Assembly (NCBI GenBank): GCA_016871015.1
Contig: VFZX01000038.1
Coordinates: 1-33,527 of the forward strand
DNA: 33,527 bases
Origin: Acidobacteriota bacterium
GTDB lineage: Bacteria; Acidobacteriota; Terriglobia; Bryobacterales; Bryobacteraceae
Direction of reading: 5' to 3'
Shown here: positions 3,431 through 31,610 of the stretch, piece after piece
Position numbering within the stretch: the stretch's first letter is position 1
Layout of the letters: every line of letters starts with the position of its first letter
The notes under the pieces: generated by a model
Seen by the model: the letters and a program-made list of their open reading frames with translations, nothing else
Told to the model about the DNA's origin: nothing
Database searches by the model: none
Made by a program: the position numbers and the translations under genes

Positions 3431-3436
3431 AGGATA
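3431..3436 (-). promoter_or_regulatory. -10-like hexamer for fbp-pckG
   Basis: On the minus strand TATCCT (TANNNT type) ends 11 nt before the fbp ATG. No Shine-Dalgarno sequence lies between, so the transcript would begin only a few bases before the start codon. No convincing -35 element is seen. Confidence 0.4.
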
Positions 3437-3439
3437 GCA

Positions 3440-3461
3440 GGAATTATTCCGGTCCAGACCG
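3440..3461. promoter_or_regulatory. Two adjacent dyad sites between divergent fbp and BON-protein promoters
   Basis: GGAAT-T-ATTCC (3440-3450) and CGGTC-CA-GACCG (3450-3461) are perfect inverted repeats that share one base. They lie between the two divergent -10-like hexamers (3431-3436 minus and 3467-3472 plus), where a repressor or activator could act on both genes. The symmetry is visible; binding by any regulator is inference. Confidence 0.4.
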
Positions 3462-3466
3462 TGATG

Positions 3467-3472
3467 TATGAT
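3467..3472 (+). promoter_or_regulatory. -10-like hexamer deciding the BON-protein start
   Basis: TATGAT ends 7 nt before the ATG at 3480. This hexamer contains an in-frame upstream ATG (3468). If it is the -10 box, that ATG cannot be in the transcript and the protein starts at 3480. Confidence 0.45.
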
Positions 3473-3479
3473 TGTGCCT

Positions 3480-4049
3480 ATGAAACTGACACTTGCACTG
3501 TTTGCTCTGACACTCTGCGCGCCGGCCGTGGCGCAGAAGCAGGTTTTGGAAACGAGGGAAGCGGGCGCCGCAACGGGGAACCGCGGCTTTGACCGCCTGG
3601 TCCGCGAGATCCGGCATGAGCTGATCATGTTGCCGTTCCTGAGTGTGTTCGACGATCTGTCGTTCCGCGTGGAAGGATACAACGTGACGTTGATGGGGTC
3701 GGTGACGCGGCCGACACTCAAGTCTGATGCCGAAAACCGGGTGAAGAAGATCGAGGGTGTCGAGAAGCTGGTGAACAATATCGAAGTATTGCCGCTTTCG
3801 CCAATGGATGACCGGATCCGTGTCGCCACCGCGCGCATGGTGTTTGGACATCCGTCGCTCAACCGCTACGGGATCCAGGCCATCCCGCCCATCCGCATCA
3901 TCGTCAAGAACGGGAACGTGAGCCTGGAAGGCATTGTGGCCAACGAAACCGACAAGAATATCGCGGGAATCGAGGCCAACGGCGTGCCGGGCGTGTTCAA
4001 AGTGACCAACAACCTGCGCGTCGAGCAGCAACAGCAGAAGAAGAAATAG
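3480..4049 (+). CDS. Secreted/periplasmic protein with two BON domains
   Basis: About 189 residues. A clear signal peptide (MKLTLALFALTLCAPAVAQ) is followed by two BON-type modules: roughly residues 30-100 (FDRLVREIRHEL ... VTLMGSVTRPTLKSDAENRVKKIEGVEKLVNNIEV) and 105-180 (IRVATARMVFG ... VSLEGIVANETDKNIAGIEANGVPGVFKVTNNLRV). BON domains are small alpha/beta folds of periplasmic proteins such as OsmY and are thought to bind membranes or phospholipid. The tail is Gln/Lys-rich. The start at 3480 is preferred over the ATG at 3468 because the signal peptide begins there and the earlier ATG overlaps the -10-like TATGAT. The next gene follows after 3 nt, so this is probably first in a five-gene operon ending with sdhB. 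No substrate can be deduced. Confidence 0.8.
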   Translation: MKLTLALFALTLCAPAVAQKQVLETREAGAATGNRGFDRLVREIRHELIMLPFLSVFDDLSFRVEGYNVTLMGSVTRPTLKSDAENRVKKIEGVEKLVNNIEVLPLSPMDDRIRVATARMVFGHPSLNRYGIQAIPPIRIIVKNGNVSLEGIVANETDKNIAGIEANGVPGVFKVTNNLRVEQQQQKKK

Positions 4050-4052
4050 CCG

Positions 4053-4544
4053 GTGGCGGTCAACATCACCCGCGCGATCGTGGGATTCGCGCTGCTGGTC
4101 TTCTGCGGTGTGTGGATTCCGCTGAAGCGCGGTTGGGAGGCGCTCGATCCGTACCTGCTGTGCGCCTATGCTTTGGCTGGGGCGTTGTTTGCGGCGAACG
4201 CTCCGTTCCGGCTGGTTGGAGCGTGGCTGTTCGGCGCGGCGGCTTCGTTCCTGGTGCTGATCCTGGCGATCGGGACGGTGAACTGGACCAGCGCGGCGCC
4301 CAAGCTGCTCGTGCCGTCGCGCGAGGTGCTGTTCCAATTGGCGGTGGTCAGCCTGTCCGCGCCGCTGGTTGCGGCGGCTCTCGCGCGTGTCGTGAGGCCG
4401 GTACCGTTACGCCTGCTGATGTTGGCGGGCGCCTGGCTTTTCATCCGGCAGCCTGCTCACGAAGCGCTGGGTTCGGTCGCGCGATGGCTTCCGGTGGGTG
4501 CGGCCGGAGCCGTTCTGATCGCGCGGAAATACGGGCGAAAGTGA
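4053..4544 (+). CDS. Small integral membrane protein of unknown function
   Basis: 163 residues starting at a GTG three bases after the BON-protein stop, so translation is probably coupled. It is mostly hydrophobic, with about five likely membrane segments: near residues 8-22, 33-50, 55-75, 90-112 and 118-133. It ends in the basic RKYGRK. No catalytic motif or recognised family is visible. It lies directly before the succinate dehydrogenase genes, but a -10-like hexamer immediately after its stop suggests sdhC can also be transcribed separately, so a role in the dehydrogenase is not implied. Its codons show the high third-position GC of neighbouring genes, which supports it as real. Confidence 0.65.
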   Translation: MAVNITRAIVGFALLVFCGVWIPLKRGWEALDPYLLCAYALAGALFAANAPFRLVGAWLFGAAASFLVLILAIGTVNWTSAAPKLLVPSREVLFQLAVVSLSAPLVAAALARVVRPVPLRLLMLAGAWLFIRQPAHEALGSVARWLPVGAAGAVLIARKYGRK

Positions 4545-4550
4545 TATCCT
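4545..4550 (+). promoter_or_regulatory. -10-like hexamer for the sdh operon
   Basis: TATCCT begins right after the TGA of the upstream gene and ends 9 nt before the sdhC ATG (4560). No Shine-Dalgarno sequence lies between. An identical hexamer precedes fbp and the alcohol dehydrogenase gene at similar spacing. Confidence 0.4.
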
Positions 4551-4559
4551 GACGGTTTG

Positions 4560-5351
4560 ATGCCATCGATCGATGTGCCGGTCCGCAATGGCGGATTCGG
4601 TCAGACCTCACGGCGCGACAATTGGTGGCTCGCGCCGCTGCTCACCTTCATCGGACTGGGCGCCTTTGTTCTGTACGCGAACGTCCGGGTCTTTCAGGGA
4701 GACCACTACCATTTCGGCCCGTACCTTTCGCCGTTCTATTCGCCGGAAATCGTCGGTCCGTCGCCACACGCATGGTTTCAAGTGGCGGCGCGGCCCGCGT
4801 GGTGGCCCGGATTCCTGCCCTTCAGCGCGGCGCTGCTGGTGATGTGGGCGCCGGTCGGATTCCGGATGACCTGCTACTACTACCGCGGCGCCTACTACAA
4901 GGCTTTCTGGGCCGATCCGCCGAACTGCTCCGTGGGCGAGCCGCGCAAGAGCTATTGGGGCGAACGCTCCTGGCCGCTGGTGATTCAGAACATCCACCGG
5001 TACTTCCTCTATTTCGCGCTGATCTTCATCGGGATCCTGGCTCATGACGCATGGAAAGCGTATTGGTTCGCGGACGGATTCCACGTGAACGTGGGCAGCC
5101 TCGTGATGACCCTGAACCCGATTCTGCTGGGCGGCTACACGCTCGGCTGCCACTCGTTCCGGCATTTGATCGGCGGAGGGATGGACGAGATTTCAAAGTC
5201 CCCGAGCCGCGCGGCGGCCTATGATTGCGTCACGTGTCTCAACAAGAAGCACATGGTCTGGGCCTGGTGCAGCCTGGTGTGGGTCGCGTTCTCAGACGTC
5301 TACCTGGTACTGTGCTCGACCGGCGTCTGGCAGGACAGGAGGATCTTCTAG
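4560..5351 (+). CDS. sdhC: Succinate dehydrogenase membrane anchor subunit (single large subunit, Sdh1-like)
   Basis: About 263 residues, an integral membrane protein with roughly five hydrophobic segments (around residues 25-45, 82-102, 143-165, 178-198 and 232-253). It anchors the flavoprotein and iron-sulfur subunits and passes electrons to quinone. Identity comes from direct abutment with sdhA and sdhB and from resemblance in size and gene order to the mycobacterial Sdh1 anchor (Rv0249c type), rather than the paired ~130-residue SdhC/SdhD of proteobacteria. Candidate haem or quinone histidines include those in NIHRYF, ILAHDAW and GCHSFRHLIGG. A CVTC pair precedes the last membrane segment. 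The ATG at 4560 is preferred over the TTG three bases earlier. The stop is immediately followed by the sdhA GTG. Confidence 0.8.
   Translation: MPSIDVPVRNGGFGQTSRRDNWWLAPLLTFIGLGAFVLYANVRVFQGDHYHFGPYLSPFYSPEIVGPSPHAWFQVAARPAWWPGFLPFSAALLVMWAPVGFRMTCYYYRGAYYKAFWADPPNCSVGEPRKSYWGERSWPLVIQNIHRYFLYFALIFIGILAHDAWKAYWFADGFHVNVGSLVMTLNPILLGGYTLGCHSFRHLIGGGMDEISKSPSRAAAYDCVTCLNKKHMVWAWCSLVWVAFSDVYLVLCSTGVWQDRRIF
5337..5342 (+). promoter_or_regulatory. Shine-Dalgarno site fixing the sdhA GTG start
   Basis: AGGAGG lies within the last codons of sdhC, 9 nt before the GTG at 5352. This perfect site contrasts with the absence of such sequences before most first genes of transcription units here. Confidence 0.75.
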
Positions 5352-7163
5352 GTGGCCTCCTACGAAACTTTCGAACACGACGTCCTGGTGATCGGCGCCG
5401 GCGGAGCGGGACTTCGCGCGGCGGTGGAGGCATCGGCGGCGGGAACCAAGGTCTGCGTGGTGAGCAAGTCGCTGCTCGGCAAAGCGCACACGGTGATGGC
5501 TGAGGGCGGCATGGCGGCGGCAATGGCCAATGTCGATGACCGCGATTCCTGGCGGGTCCACTTCGCGGACACGATGCGTGGCGGACAGTACTTGAACAAC
5601 CCACGGATGGCCGAGATCCACGCCAAGGAAGCGCCGGACCGGGTCCGGGAGCTCGAAGCCTGGGGCGCGTTGTTTGATCGCACGAAGGACGGCCGGATCC
5701 TGCAGCGGAACTTCGGCGGACACCGGTATCCGCGCCTCGCCCACGTGGGCGACCGCACGGGACTGGAGATGATCCGCACCCTGCAGGATCATGGAGTCCA
5801 CCAGGGGATCGATTTCCAGATGGAGATCACGATCGTCACGCTGCTCAAGGACGGTGACCGCATCGCCGGCGCGATGGGTTATGACCGCGAGCGCGGGCGG
5901 TTCAAGGTCTACCGTGCGAAGGCCGTCGTGCTCGCCACGGGCGGCATCGGACGCGCCTATCAGATCACGTCGAACTCGTGGGAGTACACGGGCGACGGCC
6001 AGGCGCTCGCCTATCACGCTGGCGCGAAGCTCCTCGACATGGAGTTCGTGCAGTTCCATCCAACCGGGATGGTGTGGCCGCCGTCGGTGAAGGGAATCCT
6101 GGTGACGGAGGGCGTACGCGGCGAAGGCGGAGTGCTGCGCAACAACAAGGGCAGGCGCTTCATGTTCGACGACATTCCGGAGAACTACCGCTCGTCGACG
6201 GCGGATAACGAAGAAGAAGGCTGGCGCTATGTCACCGGTGACAAGAGCGCGCGGCGTCCGCCGGAGCTGCTGACGCGCGATCACGTGGCGCGCTGCATTG
6301 TGCGCGAGGTGCGGGAGGGACGCGGGAGTCCGCATGGCGGCGTGTTCCTGGATATCTCCTGGATCAAGGAGAAGGTCCAGAACGCGCCGGAGCACATCAA
6401 GAAAAAGCTCCCGAGCATGTACCACCAGTTCAAGCAGCTCGGCGACATCGACATCACCAAGGAGCCGATGGAGGTGGGACCGACAACGCACTACGTGATG
6501 GGCGGCGTGCGCGTGGACGCGGATTCGCAAATGTCGTGCGTGCCGGGCCTGTTCGCGGCGGGTGAGTGCGCGGCCGGATTGCATGGAGCCAACCGCCTGG
6601 GCGGAAACTCGCTGTCGGACCTGTTGGTGTTCGGCAAGCGCGCCGGTGAGTTTGCGGCCAAGCACGCCAAGTCCGTGTCGATGCCCAAACTCGACAGCCC
6701 GCAGGTGGAGGCGGCGGCCAAGGCGGCAGTGGCTCCCTTCGAGCGCCAGGGCGGCGAGGGTCCCTATCAGATCCAGCAAACGCTTCAGGACAACATGCAG
6801 CAGCTCGCCGGAATCGTCCGCCGTGAGGACGAGATGACGCGGGCGCTCGAACTGATCGCCTCATTGAAAGCGAAGGCGGCGAACGTATCGGTGTACGGAA
6901 ACCGCGAGTACAACGCGGGCTGGCACACGGCGATGGATCTCGACAGCCTGTTGACGGTGTCGGAGGCGGTGGCTCGCGCCGGACTGATGCGTAGAGAAAG
7001 CCGCGGCGGCCACTTCCGGGACGATTTTCCTGGCAAGGACAACGAGTGGGGGCAATACAACATCGAGATCAGCAAGGCGGCCGATGGCTCGATGCGCGTG
7101 GAGCGTGTGCCGATCGTTCCGATGACCGGGGAGCACCAGAAGATCGTCGAGGAGAACAAGTAG
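5352..7163 (+). CDS. sdhA: Succinate dehydrogenase flavoprotein subunit
   Basis: 603 residues. It oxidises succinate to fumarate with a covalently bound FAD on the cytoplasmic face of the membrane complex. The dinucleotide-binding glycine motif GAGGAGL lies at residues 15-21. KAHT (His46) is the expected site of histidyl-FAD attachment. Substrate-site motifs follow: QFHPTGM, EGVRGEGGVLRN, THYVMGGV and GANRLGGNSL. Translation starts at a GTG abutting the sdhC stop and is supported by AGGAGG 9 nt upstream; sdhB starts 1 nt after its stop. A fumarate reductase acting in reverse cannot be excluded from sequence alone, but the Sdh1-like anchor and aerobic-type neighbours favour the dehydrogenase. 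Confidence 0.95.
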   Translation: MASYETFEHDVLVIGAGGAGLRAAVEASAAGTKVCVVSKSLLGKAHTVMAEGGMAAAMANVDDRDSWRVHFADTMRGGQYLNNPRMAEIHAKEAPDRVRELEAWGALFDRTKDGRILQRNFGGHRYPRLAHVGDRTGLEMIRTLQDHGVHQGIDFQMEITIVTLLKDGDRIAGAMGYDRERGRFKVYRAKAVVLATGGIGRAYQITSNSWEYTGDGQALAYHAGAKLLDMEFVQFHPTGMVWPPSVKGILVTEGVRGEGGVLRNNKGRRFMFDDIPENYRSSTADNEEEGWRYVTGDKSARRPPELLTRDHVARCIVREVREGRGSPHGGVFLDISWIKEKVQNAPEHIKKKLPSMYHQFKQLGDIDITKEPMEVGPTTHYVMGGVRVDADSQMSCVPGLFAAGECAAGLHGANRLGGNSLSDLLVFGKRAGEFAAKHAKSVSMPKLDSPQVEAAAKAAVAPFERQGGEGPYQIQQTLQDNMQQLAGIVRREDEMTRALELIASLKAKAANVSVYGNREYNAGWHTAMDLDSLLTVSEAVARAGLMRRESRGGHFRDDFPGKDNEWGQYNIEISKAADGSMRVERVPIVPMTGEHQKIVEENK

Positions 7164-7164
7164 C

Positions 7165-7905
7165 ATGGCGAACGCGACATTCCGCATCTGGCGGGGAGAC
7201 AAGTCCGGCGGCGGCTACAAGGATTACCCGATCGAGACGTCCGAGGGGATGGTGGTGCTCGACGCGGTGCACCAGATCCAGGCGTCGCAGGCGAATGACC
7301 TGGCGGTGCGGTGGAACTGCAAAGCGGGCAAATGTGGATCTTGCTCGGCGGAAGTCAATGGGTTCCCGAAGCTGATGTGCATGACCCGGCTGAACACGCT
7401 GGATCTCACCCAGCCGGTGACCGTGCAGCCGATGCAGACGTTCCCGGTGATCCGGGACCTGGTCACCGACGTTTCCTGGAACTACGAAGTCAAGAAGACG
7501 ATCCAGAAGATGAAGACGCGCAAGCCGGACGCCTCCGATGGCACGTGGCGGGTGAACCAGCGCGATGTCGACCGGCCGCAGGAGTTCCGCAAGTGTATCG
7601 AGTGTTTCCTGTGCCAGAACGTCTGCCACGTGTTGCGCGAACACCAGATGTTCAGCGAGTTCGTTGGTCCGCGGTTCTTTGTGTATGCGGCGGCGCTCGA
7701 AATGAATCCGGTCGACGCGGCGGACCGTGTGGCGGACTTGAAGGACAAGCACGGAATCGGGCTGTGCAACATCACCAAGTGCTGCACGCATGTGTGTCCG
7801 GAAGAGATCAAGATCACCGACAACGCGATCATTCCGCTGAAGGAGCGGGTGGTGGATGAGTTCTTCGATCCGGTCCGGAAGCTGTTCAAGATGTTCAAAG
7901 GTTAA
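7165..7905 (+). CDS. sdhB: Succinate dehydrogenase iron-sulfur subunit
   Basis: 246 residues, carrying electrons from FAD to the quinone site through three clusters. Cys52, Cys57, Cys60 and Cys72 match the plant-ferredoxin-like [2Fe-2S] site (NCKAGKCGSC ... MC). CIECFLCQNVC (Cys144, 147, 150, 154) and CNITKCCTHVCPE (Cys201, 206, 207, 211) supply the ligands of the [4Fe-4S] and [3Fe-4S] centres. The length is normal. The ATG lies one base after the sdhA stop, with GAGGAGA as a Shine-Dalgarno sequence in the end of sdhA. It is the last gene of the operon and is followed by a strong hairpin. Confidence 0.95.
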   Translation: MANATFRIWRGDKSGGGYKDYPIETSEGMVVLDAVHQIQASQANDLAVRWNCKAGKCGSCSAEVNGFPKLMCMTRLNTLDLTQPVTVQPMQTFPVIRDLVTDVSWNYEVKKTIQKMKTRKPDASDGTWRVNQRDVDRPQEFRKCIECFLCQNVCHVLREHQMFSEFVGPRFFVYAAALEMNPVDAADRVADLKDKHGIGLCNITKCCTHVCPEEIKITDNAIIPLKERVVDEFFDPVRKLFKMFKG

Positions 7906-7906
7906 C

Positions 7907-7928: not shown

Positions 7929-7952
7929 ATTGAGAACCACCCGGCTGAAGCT

Positions 7953-10364: not shown

Positions 10365-11281
10365 CGCTGCTGCCGTTTCCGCTGGTCTATCACGAGCGCT
10401 ATGATCTGCGCCTGGGCAGCCACGTCTTTCCAGCGCAGAAGTACCGGCTCATCCGTGAGCGGCTGCTGGCGGACGGCGCCGCGGATGAGGCTGACTTCCT
10501 GGAGCCGGCGCCGATCCTCGACGAGCAGCTTCATCTGGTTCACGACCGGGGATGGATCCAGCGGCTCAAGTTCGGGACGTTGAGCTACCACGAGATCGTC
10601 AAGCTGGAGATTCCGTACTCGCGCCACGTCGTCGACGGGTTCTGGCTGGCGGCGGGCGGGACCCTGCTGGCCGCGCGAAAGGCGCTGGATACGGGCGTCG
10701 CGTTCAATATCGGCGGCGGGTTCCATCATGCGTTCCACGGCCACGGCGAGGGATTCTGCGCGATCAATGACGTGGCGGTTGCGATCCGTGTGCTGCAGCA
10801 GGAAGAGGCGGTCGGCACGGCGGCAGTGCTCGATTGCGACGTGCATCACGGGAACGGAACCGCGGCGATCTTCGCCGGAGATCCCGCCGTCGATACGATC
10901 TCGCTGCACCAACTCAACAACTATCCGTCCGAGAAGCCGGCGTCGTCGATTGACATTCACCTGGATGACGGCGCGGGCGACGAGGAGTACCTGAAGAGGT
11001 TGCGCGAAGTGTGTGGCACGGTCCTGCCGCACAGGCCGGACCTGCTGGTCTACGTGGCCGGAGCGGATCCCTACTGCGAAGACGAGTTGGGCGGGCTTTC
11101 GCTGACGCTCGACGGTTTGCGCGCGCGGGACCGTTTGGTGTTTGAGTCCGCTCGGGAATACGGAGTTCCGGTGGCCGTCGTGCTTGCGGGTGGTTATGCC
11201 GCGAAGACCGAGGACACCGTTACCATCCACTGCAACACGGTGCTAGCCGCCCGCGATTGCCGCGCGAATGTGATATCGTGA
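10361..11281 (+). CDS. Class IV (HDAC11-like) histone-deacetylase-family deacylase
   Basis: 306 residues of the arginase/deacetylase fold, expected to remove acyl groups from lysines (or small molecules) with a single zinc. The His-His dyad is His122-His123 in GGGFHHAF. Predicted zinc ligands are Asp160 and His162 (DCDVHHGNGT) and Asp236 (GADP). The transition-state tyrosine is Tyr279 in AGGY. The pattern GGTLLAARKAL ... GGGFHH ... DDEYL-like ... DELGGLSLT ... R-D-LVF matches human HDAC11 (class IV) better than AcuC or class I/II enzymes. HDAC11 prefers long-chain fatty-acyl lysine. The GTG start overlaps the pta stop by 4 nt, so the two are made together. This suggests a link to acetyl-CoA/acetyl-phosphate-dependent acylation, which is inference. 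Confidence 0.88.
   Translation: MTLLPFPLVYHERYDLRLGSHVFPAQKYRLIRERLLADGAADEADFLEPAPILDEQLHLVHDRGWIQRLKFGTLSYHEIVKLEIPYSRHVVDGFWLAAGGTLLAARKALDTGVAFNIGGGFHHAFHGHGEGFCAINDVAVAIRVLQQEEAVGTAAVLDCDVHHGNGTAAIFAGDPAVDTISLHQLNNYPSEKPASSIDIHLDDGAGDEEYLKRLREVCGTVLPHRPDLLVYVAGADPYCEDELGGLSLTLDGLRARDRLVFESAREYGVPVAVVLAGGYAAKTEDTVTIHCNTVLAARDCRANVIS
11274..11279 (+). promoter_or_regulatory. -10-like hexamer for the beta-propeller gene
   Basis: TATCGT ends 9 nt before the ATG at 11289, with no Shine-Dalgarno sequence. It lies inside the last codons of the HDAC-like gene, so the propeller gene may be transcribed independently of pta. Confidence 0.35.
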
Positions 11282-15211: not shown

Positions 15212-15217
15212 TAGAGT
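15212..15217 (+). promoter_or_regulatory. -10-like hexamer for the Gfo/Idh/MocA gene
   Basis: TAGAGT ends 9 nt before the ATG at 15227, with a weak TTCAAG 18 bp upstream as a possible -35. The only purine-rich stretch (GAGG) is too far from the start to be a normal Shine-Dalgarno sequence. Confidence 0.3.
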
Positions 15218-16429: not shown

Positions 16430-16435
16430 TAGAAT
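16430..16435 (+). promoter_or_regulatory. -10-like hexamer for the acyl-CoA synthetase gene
   Basis: TAGAAT (5 of 6 to consensus) ends 13 nt before the ATG at 16449, with no Shine-Dalgarno sequence between. Confidence 0.35.
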
Positions 16436-16448: not shown

Positions 16449-17965
16449 ATGCTGCTGCACGACTACCTGAACTACTTCGCCATCCGCCAGCCCGACGCGG
16501 AATTCGCCTGCCAGTCCGAACGCGCGGTCACCTGGAGCCAGGCGCTCGCCGAGGTCAATCGCCTGGCCCACGCAATGACCGCGGCTGGACTCGCTCAGGG
16601 CGCCCGCTTCGGAATCCTGGCGAAGAACTGCATCGAGTATCCGCTACTGTACCTGGCGGCGTCGAAGGCTGGAGCAGTGCCCGTACCGTTGAACTACCGG
16701 ATCACGGCGGCGGATTGGGAATTCATTCTTAGCGATTCCGGCTGCGCCGTGGTGTTTGCGGCGAACGAGTATGCGCCTCAGCTCGGCGGGTCGAGAGCGG
16801 TGATTCCCATCGAATCCCTCGCAAGCTGGGCGTCCGCGCATCCAACGGCGGAGCCCGCCTGCAACGCGCGGGAGGACAGCCTGCTGATCCAGATGTACAC
16901 GAGCGGGACCACGGGCCGGCCCAAGGGCGCGATGCTCACGCAGTCGAACCTGACGTCCCAGGTCGTGCAGTTGACCAGTGGATTCGAGATGCCCCGCGGC
17001 CGGACTCTGATGGTGGCGCCGCTTATCATATCGCGGCGGTAGCCGTCGCCTTTACCGCGGTTGCGGTGGGCGGGAGTCTCTATATCCAGGAGAACTTCGT
17101 TCCCTCGGAAGTGGTGCGTGCGCTGAGCGAAGACCGGATCGCGTTCGCGCTGCTCGTTCCGGCGATGATCCAGGCATGCCTGGTCGCCGTGCCAGATGCG
17201 GGCGCGCGCAGCTATCCGGAGCTGCGATTCATCGGCTACGGTGCGTCGCCGATCGCCGAGGCCACCTTACGCCGTGCGATGGAAGCGTTCCGCTGCGGCT
17301 TCTCGCAGGGTTTCGGCATGACGGAGACCAGCGGCGCGGTGACCGTGTTGTCGCCCGACGATCACCAACGCGGTGTCACCGATCGTCCGGAGCTGCTGCT
17401 GTCGGCGGGCCGGGCGGCCTTGGGCACGGAGATGCGTGTGGTCGACCTGGATGATCAGCCTGTTCCTCCGGGCACGTTCGGCGAGATCTGCACCCGGGGT
17501 CCGCAGGTCATGGTGGGCTATTGGAACCAGCCCGGTGCGAGCGCCGAAGCTCTGCGCGGCGGCTGGATGCACACGGGCGACGCGGGCCGGATGGACGCGG
17601 AAGGCTACGTGTTCATTGAAGACCGCATCAAGGACATGATCGTCTCCGGTGGCGAGAACATCTATCCGCGCGAAGTGGAAGAGGTGCTGTTCGGGCATCC
17701 GGCTGTGGCCGATGCCGCGGCCATCGGGATCCCGCATGAGAAGTGGGGCGAGACCATCAAGGCGTTCGTGGTCCTGAAGCCTGGCGCCACAGCGACGGCC
17801 GAGGAGATGCTCGCCCATTGCCGGACACGGCTGGGCGGGTACCGGTGTCCCAGCTCGGTGGACTTCCTGCCAACGCTTCCGAGAAACCCAAGCGGCAAGG
17901 TCTTGAAGAAAGACCTCCGCGAACCCTATTGGAGGGGCCACACGCGGCGCGTATCCGGATCGTGA
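16449..17965 (+). pseudogene. Acyl-CoA synthetase (AMP-forming), broken by a single-base deletion
   Basis: The first frame (16449-17042) carries the N-terminal part, including the ATP/AMP motif MYTSGTTGRPKGAM near residue 150. It then runs out of frame at VAPLIISRR-stop. The other frame picks up exactly at the expected APL-YHIAA position and continues to 17965 with YGASPIAEA, GFGMTET, GYVFIEDRIKDMIVSGGENIYPRE and the C-terminal RNPSGKVLKKDLR. Inserting one T in the run at 17023-17024 (CTTATCAT to CTTTATCAT) restores APLYHIAA, so a one-base deletion is the whole defect. The intact protein would be ~505 residues and activate a carboxylic acid to its CoA thioester; the substrate is unknown. Everything else is well preserved, so the break is either very recent or a sequencing error. 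Confidence 0.88.
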
Positions 17966-17975: not shown

Positions 17976-18004
17976 TTGCTGCACGAGGTTGGGAACACTA
18001 TGAT
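17976..18004 (+). promoter_or_regulatory. Promoter of the nitrilase-amidohydrolase operon
   Basis: TTGCTG (17976-17981) and TATGAT (17999-18004) are separated by exactly 17 bp, a standard sigma-70-type layout. The -10 ends 8 nt before the GTG at 18013, so the mRNA would start at or next to the start codon. Confidence 0.5.
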
Positions 18005-22566: not shown

Positions 22567-22568
22567 GC

Positions 22569-23109: not shown

Positions 23110-23115
23110 ATTATA
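23110..23115 (-). promoter_or_regulatory. Perfect -10 box (TATAAT) of the VOC gene
   Basis: On the minus strand TATAAT ends 10 nt before the ATG at 23099, predicting a leader of only a few bases. An AAATT-GCA-AATTT dyad at 23142-23154 lies roughly at -40 to -50 and could be an UP-like or operator site. The rest of the 138-nt divergent gap shows no other feature. Confidence 0.5.
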
Positions 23116-23237: not shown

Positions 23238-24610
23238 ATGATTGCCCAAACCCTTTCCCTTTCCCTTTCCCTTTTGGGCGCCGCATGCCTCAGCGCACAG
23301 CTCACCAGCCAGCAGCGGCTGGACGACCTGCGAAGCCTCGCCGCGCTCTACAACAAGCACTACGCACCCTACGAAATCAAACAGCAATTGTTCAATGTCG
23401 ACATGCTCGACCTCCGCCCGTGGATCGCCAAGTCCGCGGCCGCCCGCAATGATATTGAATTTTACGGTGTGCTCCGCGAGTACGCCGCCTCCCTCCAGGA
23501 CGGCCACGCCAGCTTCGAAATCCCTTCGGCGTTCACCGCCACCCTCTCGTTCGGAGTCGATTTCTACGACGGCAGGCCGCTGATCGACTTCATCATCCGG
23601 CAGCGGCTGCCAGCGGACCGGTTCCCGTTCGAGACCGGCGACGAATTGATCAGCGTCAACGCCGTAGAGGCTGACCTCTGCCTTCCGCAGTTCCTGGAGA
23701 AGGCTGAACGGCTGGGGCTGGAATTGGGAATTTGAACCCGGTGTTCCGTCTTCCGGACGGATTCGTCATGCGCATCGGCGGCCGCCCCAATGACCAATTC
23801 ATTACCGGGACCTTCCAGTCCGACGGACTGCGCATCGGCTTCATCCGGATACCGCGATTCTCGCCGCTCGCCGGCACTGATGAGAATGCCGAGCTGGCGC
23901 GGCTGGTCGGCGAGATCGTGTTCCTGCAGCAGAACACCGATGGACTGGTGGTCGACGTGATGCACAACCCGGGTGGACGCATCGAGATCGTCGAAGGGCT
24001 CGCCTCCGTGCTGATGCCGCGGACCTTCCGCACGGTTGGATACGAAGTACGCGCCACCTGGGCCATGGTGCGCCGCTTCGAGTCGAACCTGGAGGCCGCG
24101 CGCGCCGCGGGAGCGCCGGCCTATGAGATCGATGTGCTGGAGCGGTTCGCCCGCTCGGTCCGCACCGCGTATGAAGAAAACTGCGGCCGGACCGGTGCGC
24201 TGTCGCTGACTCAGCCGTCGCTCGACATTCCGCCGTTTGCGACGCCCGACGGGATTACGATTGCCTACACGAAGCCGCTCATGGTGCTGATCGACGACGT
24301 GTCCTTCTCCGGCGCGGACATGTTTCCGGCGGTCATCAAGGACAACGGGCGCGGAATTCTGTTCGGCTACCGCACGGCCGGCGCCGGCGGCAGCGTGAGC
24401 ACTCTCACCGCAGGCGCCTACACGGAGGGCTCGGCGCGAGTGACACAAACGCTGATGGTCCGCCCGGATGGCCGCTACATCGAGAACGCGGGTGTTGAAC
24501 CGGACATCGAGAACGACTACATGACGCGGGAAAACCTGATGACTGGCGGACGGCCGTTCGTTCAGGCGTTCACGCGGGCGATCGTCCAGCACATTCGCAA
24601 CAGCCAGTGA
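23238..24610 (+). pseudogene. S41 (C-terminal-processing-type) peptidase, split and probably internally deleted
   Basis: The first frame (23238-23735, 165 residues) has a signal peptide (MIAQTLSLSLSLLGAACLSA), the family's helical region with DGHASF and the start of a PDZ-like module (TGDELISVNAVEA). It ends at a TGA at 23733-23735. The second frame (usable from about 23708; first TTG at 23732) continues NPVFRLPDGF and the catalytic core, with VVDVMHNPGGRIE and the nucleophile-serine segment DDVSFSGADMFPA, ending at 24610. The join falls inside the PDZ-like region. Related acidobacterial proteins, as I recall them, have roughly 100 or more extra residues here, so a deletion plus frameshift is likely. 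The 4-nt TTGA overlap could alternatively mean two coupled genes, but the second half lacks a signal peptide. Confidence 0.7.
23244..23279. repeat. (CCCTTT)4 repeat within a hairpin; G-quadruplex-forming motif on the minus strand
   Basis: Four exact CCCTTT units (23251-23274) sit inside the signal-peptide codons of the S41 gene, encoding repeated Leu-Ser. They are flanked by GCCCAAA (23244-23250) and TTTGGGC (23273-23279), a 7-bp inverted repeat. On the minus strand there are five GGG runs, each separated by three bases, satisfying the usual G-quadruplex rule (four G3 runs with loops of 1-7). The tract starts 6 nt after the start codon. Confidence 0.8.
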
Positions 24611-24619: not shown

Positions 24620-27600
24620 CTAGAACAGATACTTCAAGCCGAACTGCATTTCGCGATTGTTGACCTGCGTGCCTGTGATCTGGCCAAAGGTCGCCGAGCC
24701 CAGGGTGCGGTCCGGTCCGCCGAACTGGGGCGTATTGGTGAAGTTGAAGGCCTCCCAACGGAACTGCACGCGGTGGCCTTCCTTCACCCGGAACTCCTTG
24801 AAAAGCGCGAAGTCCCAAGTCTTCTGCCCCGGCGAGTCGAACAGGCCGACGCCAGAGTTGCCGTAGCCCAAAGTCCCGGGCAGAAACAGTCCGTCTCCCG
24901 TGGATCCTTCGAACTTCGACCGGACGAAGGCCGACGTATCGAACCAACGCGTGATTCCGCGTTGACCCCAGACGCGCGGGACACTCGCTCCGGCCACCAC
25001 GTGCGGGCGCTGTACGGAAGCCGGCCCAGTATTTTGAGAGTCGCCAGTCTGCGCCACCGTCACCGGCAGGCCCGACTGCAGCGTGACGATCGAGTTCAAG
25101 GACCATCCTCCGAGGACGAAGCCCTTGGCGCCCTTGGCGCCGCGCATGAAAGGAATCTCATAGAGATTGGAGAACACTAGCCGCAGACGCTGGTCAATGT
25201 TCGACCGCCCGTAGTCCGCCTCGCGGTTCCGCGGGTTCTGCGGAAAGTTCGGACCGAAACCGGCGCCTTCGTTGGCGCCGTAGCCGATTGCGTGGGCGCG
25301 CGAGTAGGTGAAGGCGGTGTTGAACGTCAACCCGGCGGACAGCCGCTTTTCGAAGCGGCCCTGCAGGCCGTTGTAGTTGGTCGACGCCCAGGATTCGTTG
25401 CGCCGGATGGTTCCGAGCGGCAGAGGCCGGTTCGGCTCGCGCGAATCGACGTAGGTCTGGAACGGACGGCGGCCCTGCACCGCGCCCGGGCCGGGGTCCG
25501 GATTATTGAAGTTCTGGACGCTGTTTTCCAGGTTCGATGCCGCGCTGCCGACATAGGCCACGCCGAGGACGTAGTTTCTACCGAAGGAGCGCTCGATCTC
25601 CGCTGACCACTGCCAGATGTCGTTGTTGCGGTACCGCGAGCGGCCCGTCTCATCAAGGAATCCGAGCATCAGCAGCGCCGCCGGCGACCCCGTCACCGGC
25701 GAGCCGCGGAACGGATCCGTGATCGTCGCCGTGGGCGTGTTGCGGTCATTCTGGAACACCGCCGAACCCGAAAACGGCGGGTTCAAGTTGAGGATCGAGA
25801 AGTTGTTGGTCTGTTGCGCGTTGTAGAAGTTGCCGCCGCCGATCCGCAGCACCGTGCTTTCGTTGAAGCGGTAGGCAATGCCCAGGCGGGGCATGATCTG
25901 CTTCTTATTGGTCTCGTAGAGGGCTTCGCGCACGTTCGGATTCGGAGTCAGCATCGGCGTGAAGACGCCGCCGATGGTCTGGGCCAGGCCCTGCTGGAAC
26001 GACAGCGTGCGGATCTTTCCCTGCGCGTCCTCCACGGGTCCGAAGTAATCCCAGCGCAGGCCGAAGTTGACCGTCAGCTTCGAGGTGGCCTTGAAATCGT
26101 CCAGCCAGTACAGCCCCATTTTCGTCTGCCGGATAAAGCCGGCCGGCATGCCCTCGGCCGAATTCGCCGAAAGGGGAATGCCCAGCAGGAACGCAGCCAT
26201 CGAGTCCGGAATACCGGCGATGTCGGCCGTGAAGCTGAGTTGGCCGCGAGGGAGGTTGGAGCCCGCAAAGTCGACGATGTTGGCGCGGTAGAGTCCGCCG
26301 AACTTGAAGTTGTGTTTGCCTCGGGTCCAAAGGAAGTTGTCCGATCCCTCCCAAACGATCTTCTTGTTGATCTGCGCGTTGCCCGAGCCGAGTCCCGTGT
26401 AGCCCGCGAGCGAAATGGATGGCACGCCCTCCTCGAGCGGACGCAGCGTCCGGTTGCCGTCGGCCACCACGCGAAGGTCGAGACCGAGATCGCGGTGCGT
26501 GAAGTCCGTGTTGGTCTGCAGTCCGCCCTGCACGACGCGCATGCGATTCATGCCGAAGCGGAAATCGTTGAGCATGGTGGGCGTCAGGATCTTGGAGTAA
26601 CCCACGGCGAAGTGCTGCGCGCGGTAGTCTGTCGATGTTTTGAAGACTCGCGTCAGCGGGTCGTCGACGAACGTGGAATCCACCAGCACGTAGTGTCCGA
26701 ACACGCGGTCGTTCTCCGAGAAGCGGTGATCGCCGCGGGTGAGGTATTGATCGGAGTCGAGGATCTGATTGTTGATCCCGGCCAGATTCAGAGTCGCCCG
26801 GTTTGCCCGCGCCGTCTCATCCACGTTCGGGAAGGGCAGGAATCCGCCATCGGCGAATGGACTGGATTTCTTCGACGTGAGCAGGTTGATCGCGACAGGC
26901 GAAATCAGGTTCCGCGGGATCACGTTGTTGGGGAACGGAACCGCGTTGGCGCCCACGCCACGGATCGCGCGGTTCACGGGGGCGTTGGCATCGGCGGGAT
27001 ACCAGCGGTTGCCCTGCTGGACGATTTCGGAGAAGTCGCCGTTGCGCATCGCCAATGTGGGGACGGCGGTCCGCGAAGGAGACCCGCGCCGTTCGCGCCG
27101 GCCTTCGTAGTTCGCAGTGAAGAACGTTTTGTCCTTGACGATTGGACCGCTCACCACTCCGCCGAACTGGTTCCGGCGCAGCTTGTTCTTGTTTGCGTTG
27201 GGAGCGAGGAAGAAGCCGCGGGCGTCAAAGGTATCGTTGCGCACGAACTCGAACCCCGTGCCGTGGAACTGGTTGGTGCCGGACTTGATCGCCAGATTCG
27301 CCTGCGCGCCCGAGTTCATGCCGTACTCGGCCGAGTAGACCGCCGACTGAATCTTGAACTCCTCAATCGCTTCAATGGAAGGCGAGAACAGCATCGCCGA
27401 GTGGTGGGAATCGACCGCCACCACGCCGTCGAGCGTGATGTTCTGGTTGGCGTCCCGCTGGCCGTTCGCGGAAATCCCGGCGATCTGGCCGGGCATCGCC
27501 AGCACGCTCGCGATCGTTCCCTGCCCGTTCAAACCCATGCGTGAAGCGCCAAAATTGACGCCAGGCATCAGTGTGGCAAGCTGTGCGAAGTTACGGCCGT

Positions 27601-28027
27601 TGAGCGGGAGCTCGACAATCCGCTTATTGTCGACCACCGAGCCGAGCGTTGCGTCTTCGGTTCGCAGCAGCGGAGCGGTGGCGGCCACTTCGACGCGTTC
27701 CACTTGCTGGCCGACCTGCAGAACGAAATCGAGCCGCGCCTTTTGCTGCAGTTGGAGAACGATGCCGGTTCGGACTTCGCTTTTGAAGCCGCCGCGCCGA
27801 CGGTGACTTCGTACTCTCCGATGTTCAGCAGGCGGAAAGATGTAGTTGCCGGTTTCGTTCGAGGTGGTGCTCCTCACGTCGCCGGTGGCTACGCGCTTTG
27901 CCGTCACGGTCGCGCCGGAAATCACGGCGCCGGTGGGATCGGTGACCAACCCCAGAATCTGAGTCGAGTCGGTCTGAGCGAACGTGGCCAGAGCGAGAAG
28001 AGACGCGGATGCAAGTCTGAACCTCAT
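24620..28027 (-). CDS. Oar-like TonB-dependent outer-membrane receptor with carboxypeptidase-regulatory domain
   Basis: 1135 residues. Signal peptide (MRFRLASASLLALATFAQ); carboxypeptidase-regulatory-like beta-sandwich at about residues 20-105 (ILGLVTDPTGAVISGATVTA); plug-like domain (VVDNKRIVELPLNGRNFAQLATLMPGV) at about 130-240; then a long beta-barrel ending in ...MQFGLKYLF, the aromatic C-terminus recognised by the outer-membrane insertion machinery. Such proteins are expanded in Acidobacteria, import or bind large ligands, and also resemble the Myxococcus adhesion protein Oar. Residues 66-80 are scrambled by two compensating indels (see findings). The ATG at 28027 is supported by AGGGGA 5 nt upstream; the GTG at 28054 is less likely. 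It is divergent from the surface-protein gene and ends 9 nt from the S41 gene. Confidence 0.88.
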   Translation of the reverse strand: MRFRLASASLLALATFAQTDSTQILGLVTDPTGAVISGATVTAKRVATGDVRSTTSNETGNYIFPPAEHRRVRSHRRRGGFKSEVRTGIVLQLQQKARLDFVLQVGQQVERVEVAATAPLLRTEDATLGSVVDNKRIVELPLNGRNFAQLATLMPGVNFGASRMGLNGQGTIASVLAMPGQIAGISANGQRDANQNITLDGVVAVDSHHSAMLFSPSIEAIEEFKIQSAVYSAEYGMNSGAQANLAIKSGTNQFHGTGFEFVRNDTFDARGFFLAPNANKNKLRRNQFGGVVSGPIVKDKTFFTANYEGRRERRGSPSRTAVPTLAMRNGDFSEIVQQGNRWYPADANAPVNRAIRGVGANAVPFPNNVIPRNLISPVAINLLTSKKSSPFADGGFLPFPNVDETARANRATLNLAGINNQILDSDQYLTRGDHRFSENDRVFGHYVLVDSTFVDDPLTRVFKTSTDYRAQHFAVGYSKILTPTMLNDFRFGMNRMRVVQGGLQTNTDFTHRDLGLDLRVVADGNRTLRPLEEGVPSISLAGYTGLGSGNAQINKKIVWEGSDNFLWTRGKHNFKFGGLYRANIVDFAGSNLPRGQLSFTADIAGIPDSMAAFLLGIPLSANSAEGMPAGFIRQTKMGLYWLDDFKATSKLTVNFGLRWDYFGPVEDAQGKIRTLSFQQGLAQTIGGVFTPMLTPNPNVREALYETNKKQIMPRLGIAYRFNESTVLRIGGGNFYNAQQTNNFSILNLNPPFSGSAVFQNDRNTPTATITDPFRGSPVTGSPAALLMLGFLDETGRSRYRNNDIWQWSAEIERSFGRNYVLGVAYVGSAASNLENSVQNFNNPDPGPGAVQGRRPFQTYVDSREPNRPLPLGTIRRNESWASTNYNGLQGRFEKRLSAGLTFNTAFTYSRAHAIGYGANEGAGFGPNFPQNPRNREADYGRSNIDQRLRLVFSNLYEIPFMRGAKGAKGFVLGGWSLNSIVTLQSGLPVTVAQTGDSQNTGPASVQRPHVVAGASVPRVWGQRGITRWFDTSAFVRSKFEGSTGDGLFLPGTLGYGNSGVGLFDSPGQKTWDFALFKEFRVKEGHRVQFRWEAFNFTNTPQFGGPDRTLGSATFGQITGTQVNNREMQFGLKYLF

Positions 28028-28089
28028 TTTTGTCCCCTGTGTCAAAAGTTTCACTGGGCGGATTACCTCCCAGATCCATTGCGACTTCT

Positions 28090-28095
28090 ATCATA
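28090..28095 (-). promoter_or_regulatory. Possible -10 box of the receptor gene
   Basis: TATGAT on the minus strand lies 62 nt before the ATG at 28027, giving a leader of about 55 nt. That leader contains an imperfect stem (28054-28073, CTGGG/CCCAG) and a Shine-Dalgarno sequence. No clear -35 is seen. The remainder of the divergent gap (to 28190) shows no other feature. Confidence 0.3.
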
Positions 28096-28190
28096 TCTCC
28101 ACGGCGTACGATCTGGCGGCAAGGTACACAACGCCGCGGATTTCAGCGACAATAAGAGCAGCGGACGCGTCCACCGCTCCATTCAAGCCC

Positions 28191-28198
28191 GGAAGGAG
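28191..28198 (+). promoter_or_regulatory. Shine-Dalgarno site of the modular surface protein
   Basis: GGAAGGAG lies 12 nt before the first of two tandem ATG codons (28211, 28214). The open frame runs much further upstream without resembling protein, so this site and the signal peptide fix the start at 28211. Confidence 0.6.
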
Positions 28199-28210
28199 CA
28201 TCCTCCCCCG

Positions 28211-31200
28211 ATGATGCGTGCTGCTCTCACCCTGCCGCTGGCCGCGGCCGGTCTGCTTTACGGACAGGCACGTCCGACAATCGAATCGGTGACGCCGGTA
28301 TCGGCAGCCGCCGGTACGCAGAACCTCAACCTGATTGTCACTGGCGCCAACTACTCCCCCGAAGCGCGTGTGGTCTGGAGGTTCGGCGCGCTGAACGCGA
28401 CGGTGCTGAGCACCCAGTTCTCGCCACCGAGCCAGTTGATCGCCGCGGTCCCGGCCGGACTTCTCGCCAGCCCCGGCGAAGTGACGATCGCGGTGACGCG
28501 CCAGATTGAGGGACAGGTCCTTGTTTCGAACCTCGCGACCTTCACCGTCGTCGGCGGATTCTCGATTCAGAACACGTGTCCACTGCCGAATGCCGTGGTC
28601 AGCGTACCCTATACAGCGACGCTTGTCGCGGCGGGGGGAACACCGCCCTACGTGTGGTCCGTAATCTCAGGCGCACTCCCCGCCGGGCTCCAGTTGGCTC
28701 CGGGCGGAACCATCTCCGGCGCGGCGACGACCGTAGGGCAGTCAACATTCACCTTGCAGACCGCCGATTCCGGCGGGCGCACCACGACGCTCCCCTGCTC
28801 ATTGCGAGTCGTGAGCGCCGCCGAAGGCCAAACCCTCGCCATCACTTCGCTATCACCGAACGGCGTGGTCGCCGGCCCCAATGACGTCCGCGTCGAGATC
28901 CGCGGAGTCGGATTCGTCACCGGCGCAGTGGCGGTCCTGTTTTCACCGGGCCGTGAGCAGACCGACCTCGCAACGACGTTCTTCGCTCCCAATGTCATTA
29001 CGGCCGTGATCCCGGCCAGCAGAATCCAGCAGCCCGGCGACTACACGATCTCCGTCCGCCAGCAGGGCCTCGCGCAGTTCTTTTCCAATGCCGAGACGTT
29101 CGTGGTCTCCGCTCCGCTCCAGTTCGTCACCCAATGCCAGTTGCCCGACGGAGGCATCGGGACGCCTTACTCATTCCGGCTCGGCGCCTCCGGTGGATTT
29201 CCACCCTACCGGTTCGCATTGACCGACGGCGCGCTTCCCGGTGGACTCATGCTCGATCCCAGTGGCCTGATCGCTGGCGCAGCCACAGAGGCAGGCAATT
29301 TCCAATTCGGAGTCTCCCTCACCGACAACCGTGGAAATACGGGATCGCGCGCCTGTTCGCTGCGGATGTTCGGTCCGATCGAAGCGTTTCCCTCTGAGCT
29401 GCAGCTCACTCCGAACGCGCCGCAGAACTTGAGTATCACCGCCGCGGTTCCCGGCACCGGAGTCAGCGTGACCGTGAGCACGCAGAGCGGCGGAGGCTGG
29501 TTGCGTGCGGTGGCATCGGCGGCGGGAACTCCCGCGCTGGTCCGTGTGACAGCCGACTCCGCAAGCCTCTCCCCAGGCAGCTATTCCGGCCAGATCGTGA
29601 TCACGGGAAGCGGAGCCACGAACCGCATGGTCACGGTTCCGGTCCGCCTTACCGTGCCCACGATCGAAGCCTCGCGGCTGACAGCGCGCCCGGCGGGTCT
29701 GCGCTTCTTCACCGCGCGCAGCGGACGGGTGCCCGCGCCGCAAGGCCTGTTGATCGGGAATCCCGCGCCCACGCCAGTCGCGTTTAACGCCGCCTCCCAG
29801 GCGCCTTGGCTGTCAGTGGCGCCTGCCAGCGGATCCGTGCAGGCGGGCACTGACGCACGGCTGGTGGTCCAGGCGAATCCGGCGGGATTCGATCCCGGAA
29901 CCTACGCGGGCGAAATCGTGATCACCTCCGGAGCGCTGCGGACCGTCGTCCCCGTGAGCCTCAGCGTGAGCGCGAGCCCCGAGGTGCTGCAACTGTCGCG
30001 CGACGGAGCCACTTTGACCGCCGTGGCCGGAGGACCGCCTCCCACGCCCCGCCAATTCGAAATCCTGGAGGGCTCGGCTGCCTTCTTCTGGGAGACCACC
30101 TCGCCCACTGGCTGGACTCTGAGCCCCGCCTCTGATGCGTCACGGCCCGGACTGCTCTCGCCCGTCGAAATCACCGCGGATTCAAGCGGACTCTCCGCGG
30201 ACGTCCACCAGGCCACCATCCGCGTCGCCGCGCAGGCAGCGGACAATTCGCCACGCCTGTTCACCGCCGCGCTTCGTCTCCTCGGCGCCGACGCGATTCC
30301 GCCGCCGGTGCCGTCCGCGGCTTCGCTGCTTTTTCTGGCAGCGCCCGGGACGCCGGCCTCGCCCCGCCGCCTCGCCCTGCGGAACCTGTCGCGGCGAGCG
30401 ATGACGATCGACGTGCAGATCACCGGAGACAGCCGCCCCTGGACTCTCGACACCACTTCGCGTCGCGTGGTCCCGCCGGGCGAGTCGCGGACCATCGAAG
30501 TGGGAGTGAATCTCGAAGGAGTCGCGCCGGGCATCTACCGGTCCATCCTCGCCATTCAGGGGACCGGCAGCCCGCGCATTCACACCGTCGACCTCGTGTT
30601 GGTCTTCAGTCCGCAGGGCGCCTGCACGCCGTCGCGGCTGGAGATCCTGCCGGTCTCCCTGCCTGGAAACTTCGAATCCGCGGGTGGACTTGCCGAGGAC
30701 GTCGAAGTGCAAGTCCGCGACAACTGCGGGAATCCAGTCAGCACCGGACTGGTCACCGCGGATGTACCGGGCGCGATGCTGTCACTGGCCAGCCTGCGCG
30801 ACGGGCGCTGGGCTGGGTCCTGGTCCGTGCCGAACACCACGGGACCGGCCGAGTTGCGTCTGGCGGCATCCAGCGGCGCACTCCTTGGAAGCCTGTCGAT
30901 CCTGGGAACGGTGACGGCGACTCCGGGAGTCCCGTATCTCGCCCCGGACGGCGTGGTCAGCCTCCCTGGATTCTCGGCGGCGCCCATCGCGTCCGGAGGG
31001 CTCCTCGCAGCTTTTGGAACGGGTCTCGCCACAGCCCTCCAGACCGCTCCAGGGTTCCCGCTACCCAACGGGCTGAGCGGAACCCAGTTGCTCATTGGCG
31101 AAAACCCCGTGCCGCTCTACTTCACCAGCGCGGGTCAGATCAACGCGCAGACGCTGTACAACCTGCGCGCCAACGTTCCGCACCAGGTGTCGGTGCGGGC

Positions 31201-31600
31201 AGGCAGCCGCTGGAGCAACCGTGTTGATATCGCTGTGTCAGTTGCGCAACCGGTGATTTTTGCCGCCACCGATGTCCGGGGCGTTCCGGTTTCGACGGAC
31301 AACCCTGCGCGGCGCGGCGACACGATCGTCGTGTATTGTTCCGGTCTGGGCCCGGTGTCTGGCGCCGTGGTTGCTGGCGGAGCCGCGCCATCCGCCGAAC
31401 TCGCCGCCGCGCTGCTGCCGGTCACCGTAACGATCGCCGGACAACCCGCCGCGGTGGGATTCGCCGGACTCACGCCAGGACTCGCCGGGCTCTACCAGGT
31501 GAACGTGACCGTGTCCACGTCGGCCCCGGCCGGCGACAACGTGCCGCTCACCGTGACCGCCGGCGGACTGACCGGATCCACGGCCATCTCCGTACAGTAG
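28211..31600 (+). CDS. Modular cell-surface protein: (TIG-PIG)x2, BACON-like repeats, TIGR03437 C-terminal domain
   Basis: 1129 residues. A signal peptide (MMRAALTLPLAAAGLLYGQ) is followed by TIG/IPT-like residues 20-118, a putative-Ig (He_PIG) module 122-200, a second TIG/IPT-like module 208-298 and a second He_PIG module 308-388. Four repeats of ~100 residues resembling BACON domains span about 392-800 (for example ...WLSVAPASGSV ... GTYAGEIVITS). An Ig-like module covers about 804-901, and the Solibacter-type C-terminal domain 905-1129 (SAGQINAQTLYNLR, GDTIVVYCSGLGPVSG, GLAGLYQVNVTV). Each He_PIG module opens with CxLP and closes with C-S-L-R, so a disulfide per module is likely. The function is unknown; adhesion or glycan binding is inferred from domain types. 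It is divergent from the TonB receptor. Confidence 0.85.
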   Translation: MMRAALTLPLAAAGLLYGQARPTIESVTPVSAAAGTQNLNLIVTGANYSPEARVVWRFGALNATVLSTQFSPPSQLIAAVPAGLLASPGEVTIAVTRQIEGQVLVSNLATFTVVGGFSIQNTCPLPNAVVSVPYTATLVAAGGTPPYVWSVISGALPAGLQLAPGGTISGAATTVGQSTFTLQTADSGGRTTTLPCSLRVVSAAEGQTLAITSLSPNGVVAGPNDVRVEIRGVGFVTGAVAVLFSPGREQTDLATTFFAPNVITAVIPASRIQQPGDYTISVRQQGLAQFFSNAETFVVSAPLQFVTQCQLPDGGIGTPYSFRLGASGGFPPYRFALTDGALPGGLMLDPSGLIAGAATEAGNFQFGVSLTDNRGNTGSRACSLRMFGPIEAFPSELQLTPNAPQNLSITAAVPGTGVSVTVSTQSGGGWLRAVASAAGTPALVRVTADSASLSPGSYSGQIVITGSGATNRMVTVPVRLTVPTIEASRLTARPAGLRFFTARSGRVPAPQGLLIGNPAPTPVAFNAASQAPWLSVAPASGSVQAGTDARLVVQANPAGFDPGTYAGEIVITSGALRTVVPVSLSVSASPEVLQLSRDGATLTAVAGGPPPTPRQFEILEGSAAFFWETTSPTGWTLSPASDASRPGLLSPVEITADSSGLSADVHQATIRVAAQAADNSPRLFTAALRLLGADAIPPPVPSAASLLFLAAPGTPASPRRLALRNLSRRAMTIDVQITGDSRPWTLDTTSRRVVPPGESRTIEVGVNLEGVAPGIYRSILAIQGTGSPRIHTVDLVLVFSPQGACTPSRLEILPVSLPGNFESAGGLAEDVEVQVRDNCGNPVSTGLVTADVPGAMLSLASLRDGRWAGSWSVPNTTGPAELRLAASSGALLGSLSILGTVTATPGVPYLAPDGVVSLPGFSAAPIASGGLLAAFGTGLATALQTAPGFPLPNGLSGTQLLIGENPVPLYFTSAGQINAQTLYNLRANVPHQVSVRAGSRWSNRVDIAVSVAQPVIFAATDVRGVPVSTDNPARRGDTIVVYCSGLGPVSGAVVAGGAAPSAELAAALLPVTVTIAGQPAAVGFAGLTPGLAGLYQVNVTVSTSAPAGDNVPLTVTAGGLTGSTAISVQ

Positions 31601-31604
31601 ACGG

Positions 31605-31610
31605 TATCCT
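31605..31610 (+). promoter_or_regulatory. -10-like hexamer for the alcohol dehydrogenase gene
   Basis: TATCCT ends 10 nt before the ATG at 31621, with no strong Shine-Dalgarno sequence between (only GGAA directly after the hexamer). It is identical to the hexamers before fbp and sdhC. Confidence 0.35.

Follow-up and report, generated by a model that had tools for sequence, protein, structure and literature searches.

Introduction

Leaderless (TA-led) genes were predicted in three of three Acidobacteria genomes, with a mean share of 13.3% (9.7-19.4) (Zheng et al. 2011, BMC Genomics 12:361, PMC3160421). These genes are described as having TANNNT about 12 nucleotides (nt) upstream, counted from its first T, and no Shine-Dalgarno (SD) site, and they are expected to be operon-proximal (PMC3160421). 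In Deinococcus-Thermus, a -10 motif adjoins the start codon of about 30% of the open reading frames (ORFs), and transcription data accompany this result (PMC12340547). Mycobacterium tuberculosis has an extensive leaderless transcriptome with TANNNT (PMC3898074). SD use by class is treated in PMC10783764. In this study, TANNNT boxes close to start codons were analyzed on contig VFZX01000038.1 (33,527 nt; this whole stretch is called the window) of an Acidobacteriota bacterium of the family Bryobacteraceae (assembly GCA_016871015.1) and in a larger sample of its genome.

We consider it very likely that many genes of this bacterium are leaderless, with a -10 box set against the start codon and a message that begins at the first codon. 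The excess of boxes before divergent genes, the boxes without SD sites, the preference for ATG, and the lack of a peak in Escherichia coli all argue for it. The layout is the one described for Deinococcus-Thermus. That case belongs to another phylum and is backed by transcription data, and the leaderless transcripts of M. tuberculosis were shown by 5'-end sequencing, whereas ours are predicted from sequence alone. Leaderless use had already been predicted for the phylum, and the main finding is a further case of a known type.

We infer the mechanism from the placement of the boxes. They would be -10 elements that the housekeeping sigma factor most likely recognizes, and they would direct RNA polymerase to start on the start codon or no more than a few nt from it. 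The resulting mRNA would have no leader or almost none, and the ribosome would bind the 5'-terminal start codon without an SD site. Many operon-internal genes and some genes with long leaders would use SD sites.

Boxes upstream of start codons in the genome

The initial annotation, made from the window, had proposed a TANNNT peak upstream of starts as a genome-wide test. Applied to 2.42 Mb (28%) of the 8.66-Mb, 720-contig genome, the test was positive. The sample consisted of 96 stretches, including the window (contig 38); a 16-kb stretch of contig 1 reading as N was excluded. A self-trained coding model that is blind to upstream signals gave 1,690 gene calls, of which 1,588 were usable. Expected counts were taken from positions 30-79 nt upstream, and dinucleotide shuffles (200 runs) served as a second control. 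The peak lay 6-9 nt before the starts. Among 468 divergent genes, boxes stood at 6, 7, 8, and 9 nt in 33, 31, 37, and 24 cases, respectively, which is 125 genes (26.7%) against 15.2 expected and 17.0 in the shuffles (maximum 32). At internal in-frame ATG/GTG codons (n = 34,656), a box at that distance occurred in 0.72%.

Codirectional genes with a gap of more than 20 nt were boxed in 58 of 473 cases (12.3%; 11.5 expected); the far genes of this class accounted for 28 (6.0 in shuffles) and the middle genes for 30 (5.8 in shuffles). Tight genes, which overlap a codirectional gene or lie at most 20 nt behind it, were boxed in 66 of 647 cases (10.2%), against 5.1 expected and 11.8 in shuffles. In 17 of these 66, the TA of the box is the stop codon of the neighbor; 13 others overlap that stop codon in another way, and 13 boxes lie wholly inside the preceding gene. 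Dropping the 17 coincidences leaves 49. The proposal that the peak would be confined to first genes was thus not borne out: the box is enriched in first genes and not exclusive to them. The same counts bear on the idea that boxes are restricted to the heads of transcription units. The highest share does fall in divergent genes, but the tight downstream genes are boxed too, and five of the nine boxed genes first listed in the window lie less than 50 nt from a codirectional neighbor, so we hold this idea to be improbable.

A second hump was seen at 11-14 nt. By eye, its cases mostly have no nearer in-frame start, and some are second registers of a nearer box. We read the hump as probable leaders of a few nt.

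After correction for background, roughly 14% of all genes are estimated to be leaderless, and about 18% when confident starts are used, similar to the 13.3% of Zheng et al. The raw share among divergent genes with confident starts is 44%, and it is not directly comparable with the 39.4% that they give for Deinococcus-Thermus, which refers to all genes.

Form of the box and translation signals

In the aligned boxes of 183 genes, G stood two places upstream in 58% and T three places upstream in 38%. The fourth and fifth positions of the hexamer were A or C in 69% and 82%, respectively. Neither TGn nor the A/C-rich middle positions played a part in box selection. By this composition, the box is an extended -10 element with the predicted consensus tGnTA[t/c][a/c][a/c]T. 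T stood 24 nt upstream in 35% of the initial data and in 29% once the data set was enlarged, and no -35 element is claimed from this excess.

The TANNNT boxes could also be an AT-rich translation signal, or an unpaired stretch near the start codon, rather than a promoter. AT-rich, unfolded start regions aid initiation without SD sites in other bacteria, which we count in favor of this explanation. The boxes nevertheless have the form of a -10 element, with TGn upstream of 25.7% (n = 249) compared with 14.1% of other boxes (n = 312), and they are commonest before divergent genes. The sdhC orthologues described below also speak against a translation signal, and we give this explanation hardly any credence. 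A promoter box next to the start codon is the reading followed here.

SD cores (GGAG, GAGG, or AGGA at SD distance) were largely missing behind boxes. Among operon-type genes, 8 of 74 boxed genes had one, compared with 228 of 573 unboxed genes (p = 3e-7), and in all four boxed classes the core was at the control level (11-12%). Unboxed operon genes had it in 220 of 556 cases (control 10%). Outside operons, ATG was the start of 172 of 211 boxed genes and of 420 of 668 unboxed genes (p = 2e-7).

If the boxes were -10 elements but translation started further downstream, the genes would have ordinary short leaders. The starts were called from the coding signal alone, which is fallible, and the caller differs from the initial annotation at three of the nine window genes. 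Second in-frame starts also lie near some genes, such as sdhC (4557/4560). On the other side, the boxes peak within a 4-nt span at the called starts, and the boxed operon-type genes lack SD cores. With confident starts (margin 3), a box at 5-10 nt was found in 44 of 101 divergent genes (control band 5.9%), and with margin 5 in 17 of 40 (control 10.0%). Restricting the count to confident starts raises the boxed share of divergent genes from 30% to 44%. We consider a general downstream start very unlikely and retain the leaderless reading.

Controls, related genomes, and sdhC

For relatives and controls, a gene model was trained for each set, and boxes at 6-9 nt were compared with the expected counts. 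The pools for relatives and phyla are small, with 37-103 genes in each. In a first pass, made mostly with the model of the studied genome, coding density was poor in several sets, hence the repeat with a model for each set. Under this protocol, the genome itself gave 240 boxes against 31.1 expected (1,581 genes). E. coli K-12, the negative control, showed no peak (6 against 10.4; 147 genes), and the pooled actinobacterial loci, the positive control, gave 8 against 1.3 (103 genes). A clear excess was seen in the same-genus genome G002 (9 against 0.8; 54 genes) and in the same-order genome G032 (7 against 1.0; 60 genes). A Gemmatimonadota pool gave 2 against 1.6 (62 genes), and cyanobacterial loci showed no excess (5 against 6.2; 59 genes). 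Two pools were counted in the first pass only: Nitrospirota/delta with 3 boxes against about 1.2, and Planctomycetota with 1 against about 0.2.

The sdhC comparison covers the 19 relatives in which a start codon aligns; the partial match in G023 was excluded, as was G005, which lacks a start codon at the aligned position. It is box-led at 7-9 nt in its own genome and in 3 of the 19 relatives (G024, G035, and G032), and none of these four has an SD core. An SD core is present in 12 of the remaining 16 orthologues, and in 15 of the 16, TANNNT stands at least 25 nt upstream. Box and SD site therefore swap between relatives. Within the genus, sdhC of G001 has TATCCT 27 nt upstream followed by AGGAG, and sdhC of G002 has an SD core and no box within 60 nt. 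Comparison of these layouts with that of the own genome indicates that the initiation mode of sdhC switched within one genus.

Several results weigh against heavy leaderless use or narrow it. Spacers of 10-14 nt, as at four of the nine boxes first listed in the window, imply leaders of a few nt and not none. A -35 element was sought 15-19 nt from the box, and the best TTGACA match was 2.75 of 6 for leaderless boxes, 2.75 for other boxes, and 2.69 for shuffles. Neither box nor SD core was found in 52% of the divergent genes (36% with confident starts), so many genes are unexplained or wrongly started. The initial annotation had held that genes with longer leaders have good SD sites. This is not general, and only 48 of 295 unboxed divergent genes (16%) have an SD core (control 11%). 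Among the relatives, the peak was weak in same-genus G001 (4 against 1.2; 50 genes) and was not seen in same-family G010 (1 against 2.5; 50 genes) or same-order G028 (2 against 1.0; 37 genes). Two pools of named Acidobacteriota loci were not clear (3 against 2.0, 54 genes; 3 against 1.3, 45 genes). Because the pools are small, such absences are weak evidence. The orthologue counts are not independent, because a single genus supplies eight of the 19 sdhC relatives, all SD-led or unboxed.

On these small samples, the leaderless habit seems to vary within the order. G010 and G028 showed little or no leaderless peak in 80 kb each, and the history of the order may include losses or gains of leaderless use.

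Short divergent gaps and possible shared boxes

Bidirectional promoters with near-symmetrical -10 elements on both strands were described in E. coli and other bacteria by Warman, Grainger, and colleagues (PMC12825309, PMC10268837). Their divergent starts are commonly 18 bp apart, and also 10 and 23 bp (PMC12825309, PMC10268837). Overlapping -10 elements on opposite strands between divergent genes were found here too. The difference is that here both predicted starts are start codons, and about 13-26 bp would be the entire intergenic region. In the main text of PMC12340547, the words "divergent" and "bidirectional" are absent. Judged from listings, no paper joining bidirectional promoters to leaderless genes was found among openly licensed papers, and Acidobacteriota was not named among the matches listed for start-site mapping. 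The two-way leaderless promoter is proposed as a new angle.

Divergent gaps of 10-45 bp made up 34 of 233 in this genome and 1 of 27 in E. coli K-12 with the same caller. Among 234 divergent pairs, 14 had a gap of 15-26 bp; boxes at 5-10 nt led both sides in 9 of them, one side in 3, and neither in 2. For pairs at least 45 bp apart, both sides were box-led in 7 of 188 (p = 1.5e-8). A lower-order gene model gave 7 of 11 and 3 of 195 for the two distances, and six pairs were identical in both models. Start calls shift with the model: the gap of the C36 pair changed from 70 bp to 16 bp, and the 24-bp C33 pair is absent from the later list. Geometry is expected to account for part of this excess of two-sided pairs: a leader cannot fit into so short a gap if the promoter is also to lie outside the neighboring gene. 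That leaderless promoters allow such short gaps is the point.

Where the divergent gap is 10-27 bp, an opposite-strand TANNNT overlapped the box in 18 of 23 boxed genes. The corresponding counts were 13 of 28 for gaps of 28-60 bp, 31 of 70 for gaps above 60 bp, and 44 of 124 for codirectional genes (18/23 against 44/124, p = 2e-4). Start codons in the short divergent pairs are about 14 to 27 bp apart. Some back-to-back pairs may thus share one near-palindromic or interlocked -10 pair of about 13-26 bp that would fire two leaderless mRNAs in opposite directions; in our judgment, the chances that this is so are even.

Both partners were typed with Pfam in 10 of 17 short pairs, and their functions look unrelated where families were found. 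Examples are SAICAR synthetase/PCP_red-domain protein, amidase/RmuC, and RmlD-type reductase/esterase. Six other genomes have the small PCP_red protein. Three of them keep the first pair side by side and divergent, and match coordinates put the gaps at 22, 28, and 25 bp. Of the remaining genomes, two carry the genes on separate contigs, and in one no synthetase was found. A permease/S55-like pair (19 bp) was adjacent in none of the 18 relatives with the permease (25 searched).

Features of the window

The nine TANNNT boxes of the initial annotation are all present, and their last T is separated from the start codon by 7-13 nt. A tenth box before the phosphoenolpyruvate carboxykinase (PEPCK) gene was not in its list. 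With starts from the initial annotation or the ORF list, a box at 7-13 nt precedes 10 of the 26 window genes; dinucleotide shuffles (n = 1,000) gave a mean of 1.36 and a maximum of 6. The coding-only caller placed other starts for BON (3468), Gfo (15242), nitrilase (18097), and PEPCK (2371), and it agreed for the other six boxed genes. The features are given in Table 1.

Table 1. Putative -10 boxes and divergent intergenic regions; coordinates refer to contig VFZX01000038.1 unless prefixed
Feature	Position	Strand	Remarks
-10 box TAAACT	2456..2461	-	12 nt before PEPCK ATG (2443), at the end of fbp; coordinates from spacer and sequence
-10 box TATCCT	3431..3436	-	11 nt before fbp ATG (3419)
fbp/BON divergent intergenic region, 60 bp	3420..3479		two boxes, facing away from each other
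-10 box TATGAT	3467..3472	+	7 nt before ATG (3480) of BON-domain protein
-10 box TATCCT	4545..4550	+	9 nt before sdhC ATG (4560); 6 nt to in-frame TTG 4557
-10 box TATCGT	11274..11279	+	9 nt before ATG (11289) of beta-propeller-type protein
-10 box TAGAGT	15212..15217	+	9 nt before Gfo/Idh/MocA ATG (15227)
-10 box TAGAAT	16430..16435	+	13 nt before acyl-CoA synthetase ATG (16449)
-10 box TATGAT	17999..18004	+	8 nt before GTG (18013), nitrilase family
-10 box TATAAT	23110..23115	-	10 nt before VOC/glyoxalase-family ATG (23099); second register TAATCT at 8 nt
-10 box TATCCT	31605..31610	+	10 nt before zinc alcohol dehydrogenase ATG (31621); other ATG, 31614, 3 nt away
SAICAR synthetase/PCP_red-domain gap, 22 bp	C7:14163-14184	divergent	TATCATA, with a candidate -10 box on each strand

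The nine genes had been described as heads of transcription units. A divergent neighbor is present for just four of them (fbp, BON, Gfo, and VOC); sdhC and the genes for the beta-propeller protein, acyl-CoA synthetase, nitrilase, and alcohol dehydrogenase lie 7-47 nt behind a same-strand gene, which contradicts that description. ORF 4053-4544 ends with its stop codon right before the sdhC box, and the beta-propeller box is contained in the 3' end of the preceding gene (gene end 11281).

As first described, none of the nine boxed genes has an SD core. Good SD sites had been assigned to internal genes and to genes with longer leaders, and this holds for sdhA, sdhB, and the secreted protein. For the surface protein, GGAG is 12 nt away. 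For the receptor, GGAGG stands by eye 11 nt before GTG 28054, and there is none such before ATG 28027. The split between box and SD site in the window is a tendency, because several tightly coupled internal genes (4053, 10361, 19045, and 19905) lack an SD core.

Family matches were obtained for fbp, sdhA, sdhB, alcohol dehydrogenase, BON, Gfo/Idh/MocA, AMP-binding, nitrilase, glyoxalase fold, receptor, and PEPCK. Family searches with the beta-propeller and SdhC proteins gave no match, and both names come from the initial annotation. SdhC was assigned by its position before sdhA and sdhB, and it has matches in 21 of 40 relatives. The nearest named full-length relatives of SdhA are two Acidobacteria metagenome-assembled genomes (MAGs; 78%), followed by Bryobacterales, Gemmatimonadetes, and other MAGs (73-75%). 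The class 1 fructose-bisphosphatase gene fbp (2454-3419, minus strand) was found in just 3 of 41 genomes searched, including its own, and for this reason its promoter could not be compared between genomes. The gene may have been acquired by horizontal transfer, or it may have been retained patchily.

Three further observations were made in the window. The AMP-binding enzyme occupies two ORFs, 16449-17042 and 17066-17965 (plus strand), which match the first and second parts of one Pfam family; a frameshift or an assembly error probably lies between them. An S41-type peptidase may likewise be split over two ORFs, 23238-23735 and 23741-24610 (plus strand), with a Pfam match on the second half only. 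Near the contig end, tRNA-Arg(TCT) (32654-32730, plus strand) adjoins a phage-integrase-family ORF (32818-33432, minus strand), which suggests that a mobile element integrated at the tRNA gene and extends past the end of the contig.

Significance

The finding would extend the predicted heavy leaderless use to a large-genome lineage of Acidobacteriota. The annotation of starts is affected, as gene finders that expect SD sites may misplace them, and so is expression in SD-dependent hosts. The sdhC gene, which is box-led or SD-led by genome within the order, is a natural case for the study of initiation-mode switching. If the two-way leaderless promoter is true, any further promoter contacts would lie inside both coding regions, and hardly any regulatory DNA would be needed to set unrelated genes back to back. 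The shared boxes, if real, show that two divergent genes can manage with very little intervening DNA.

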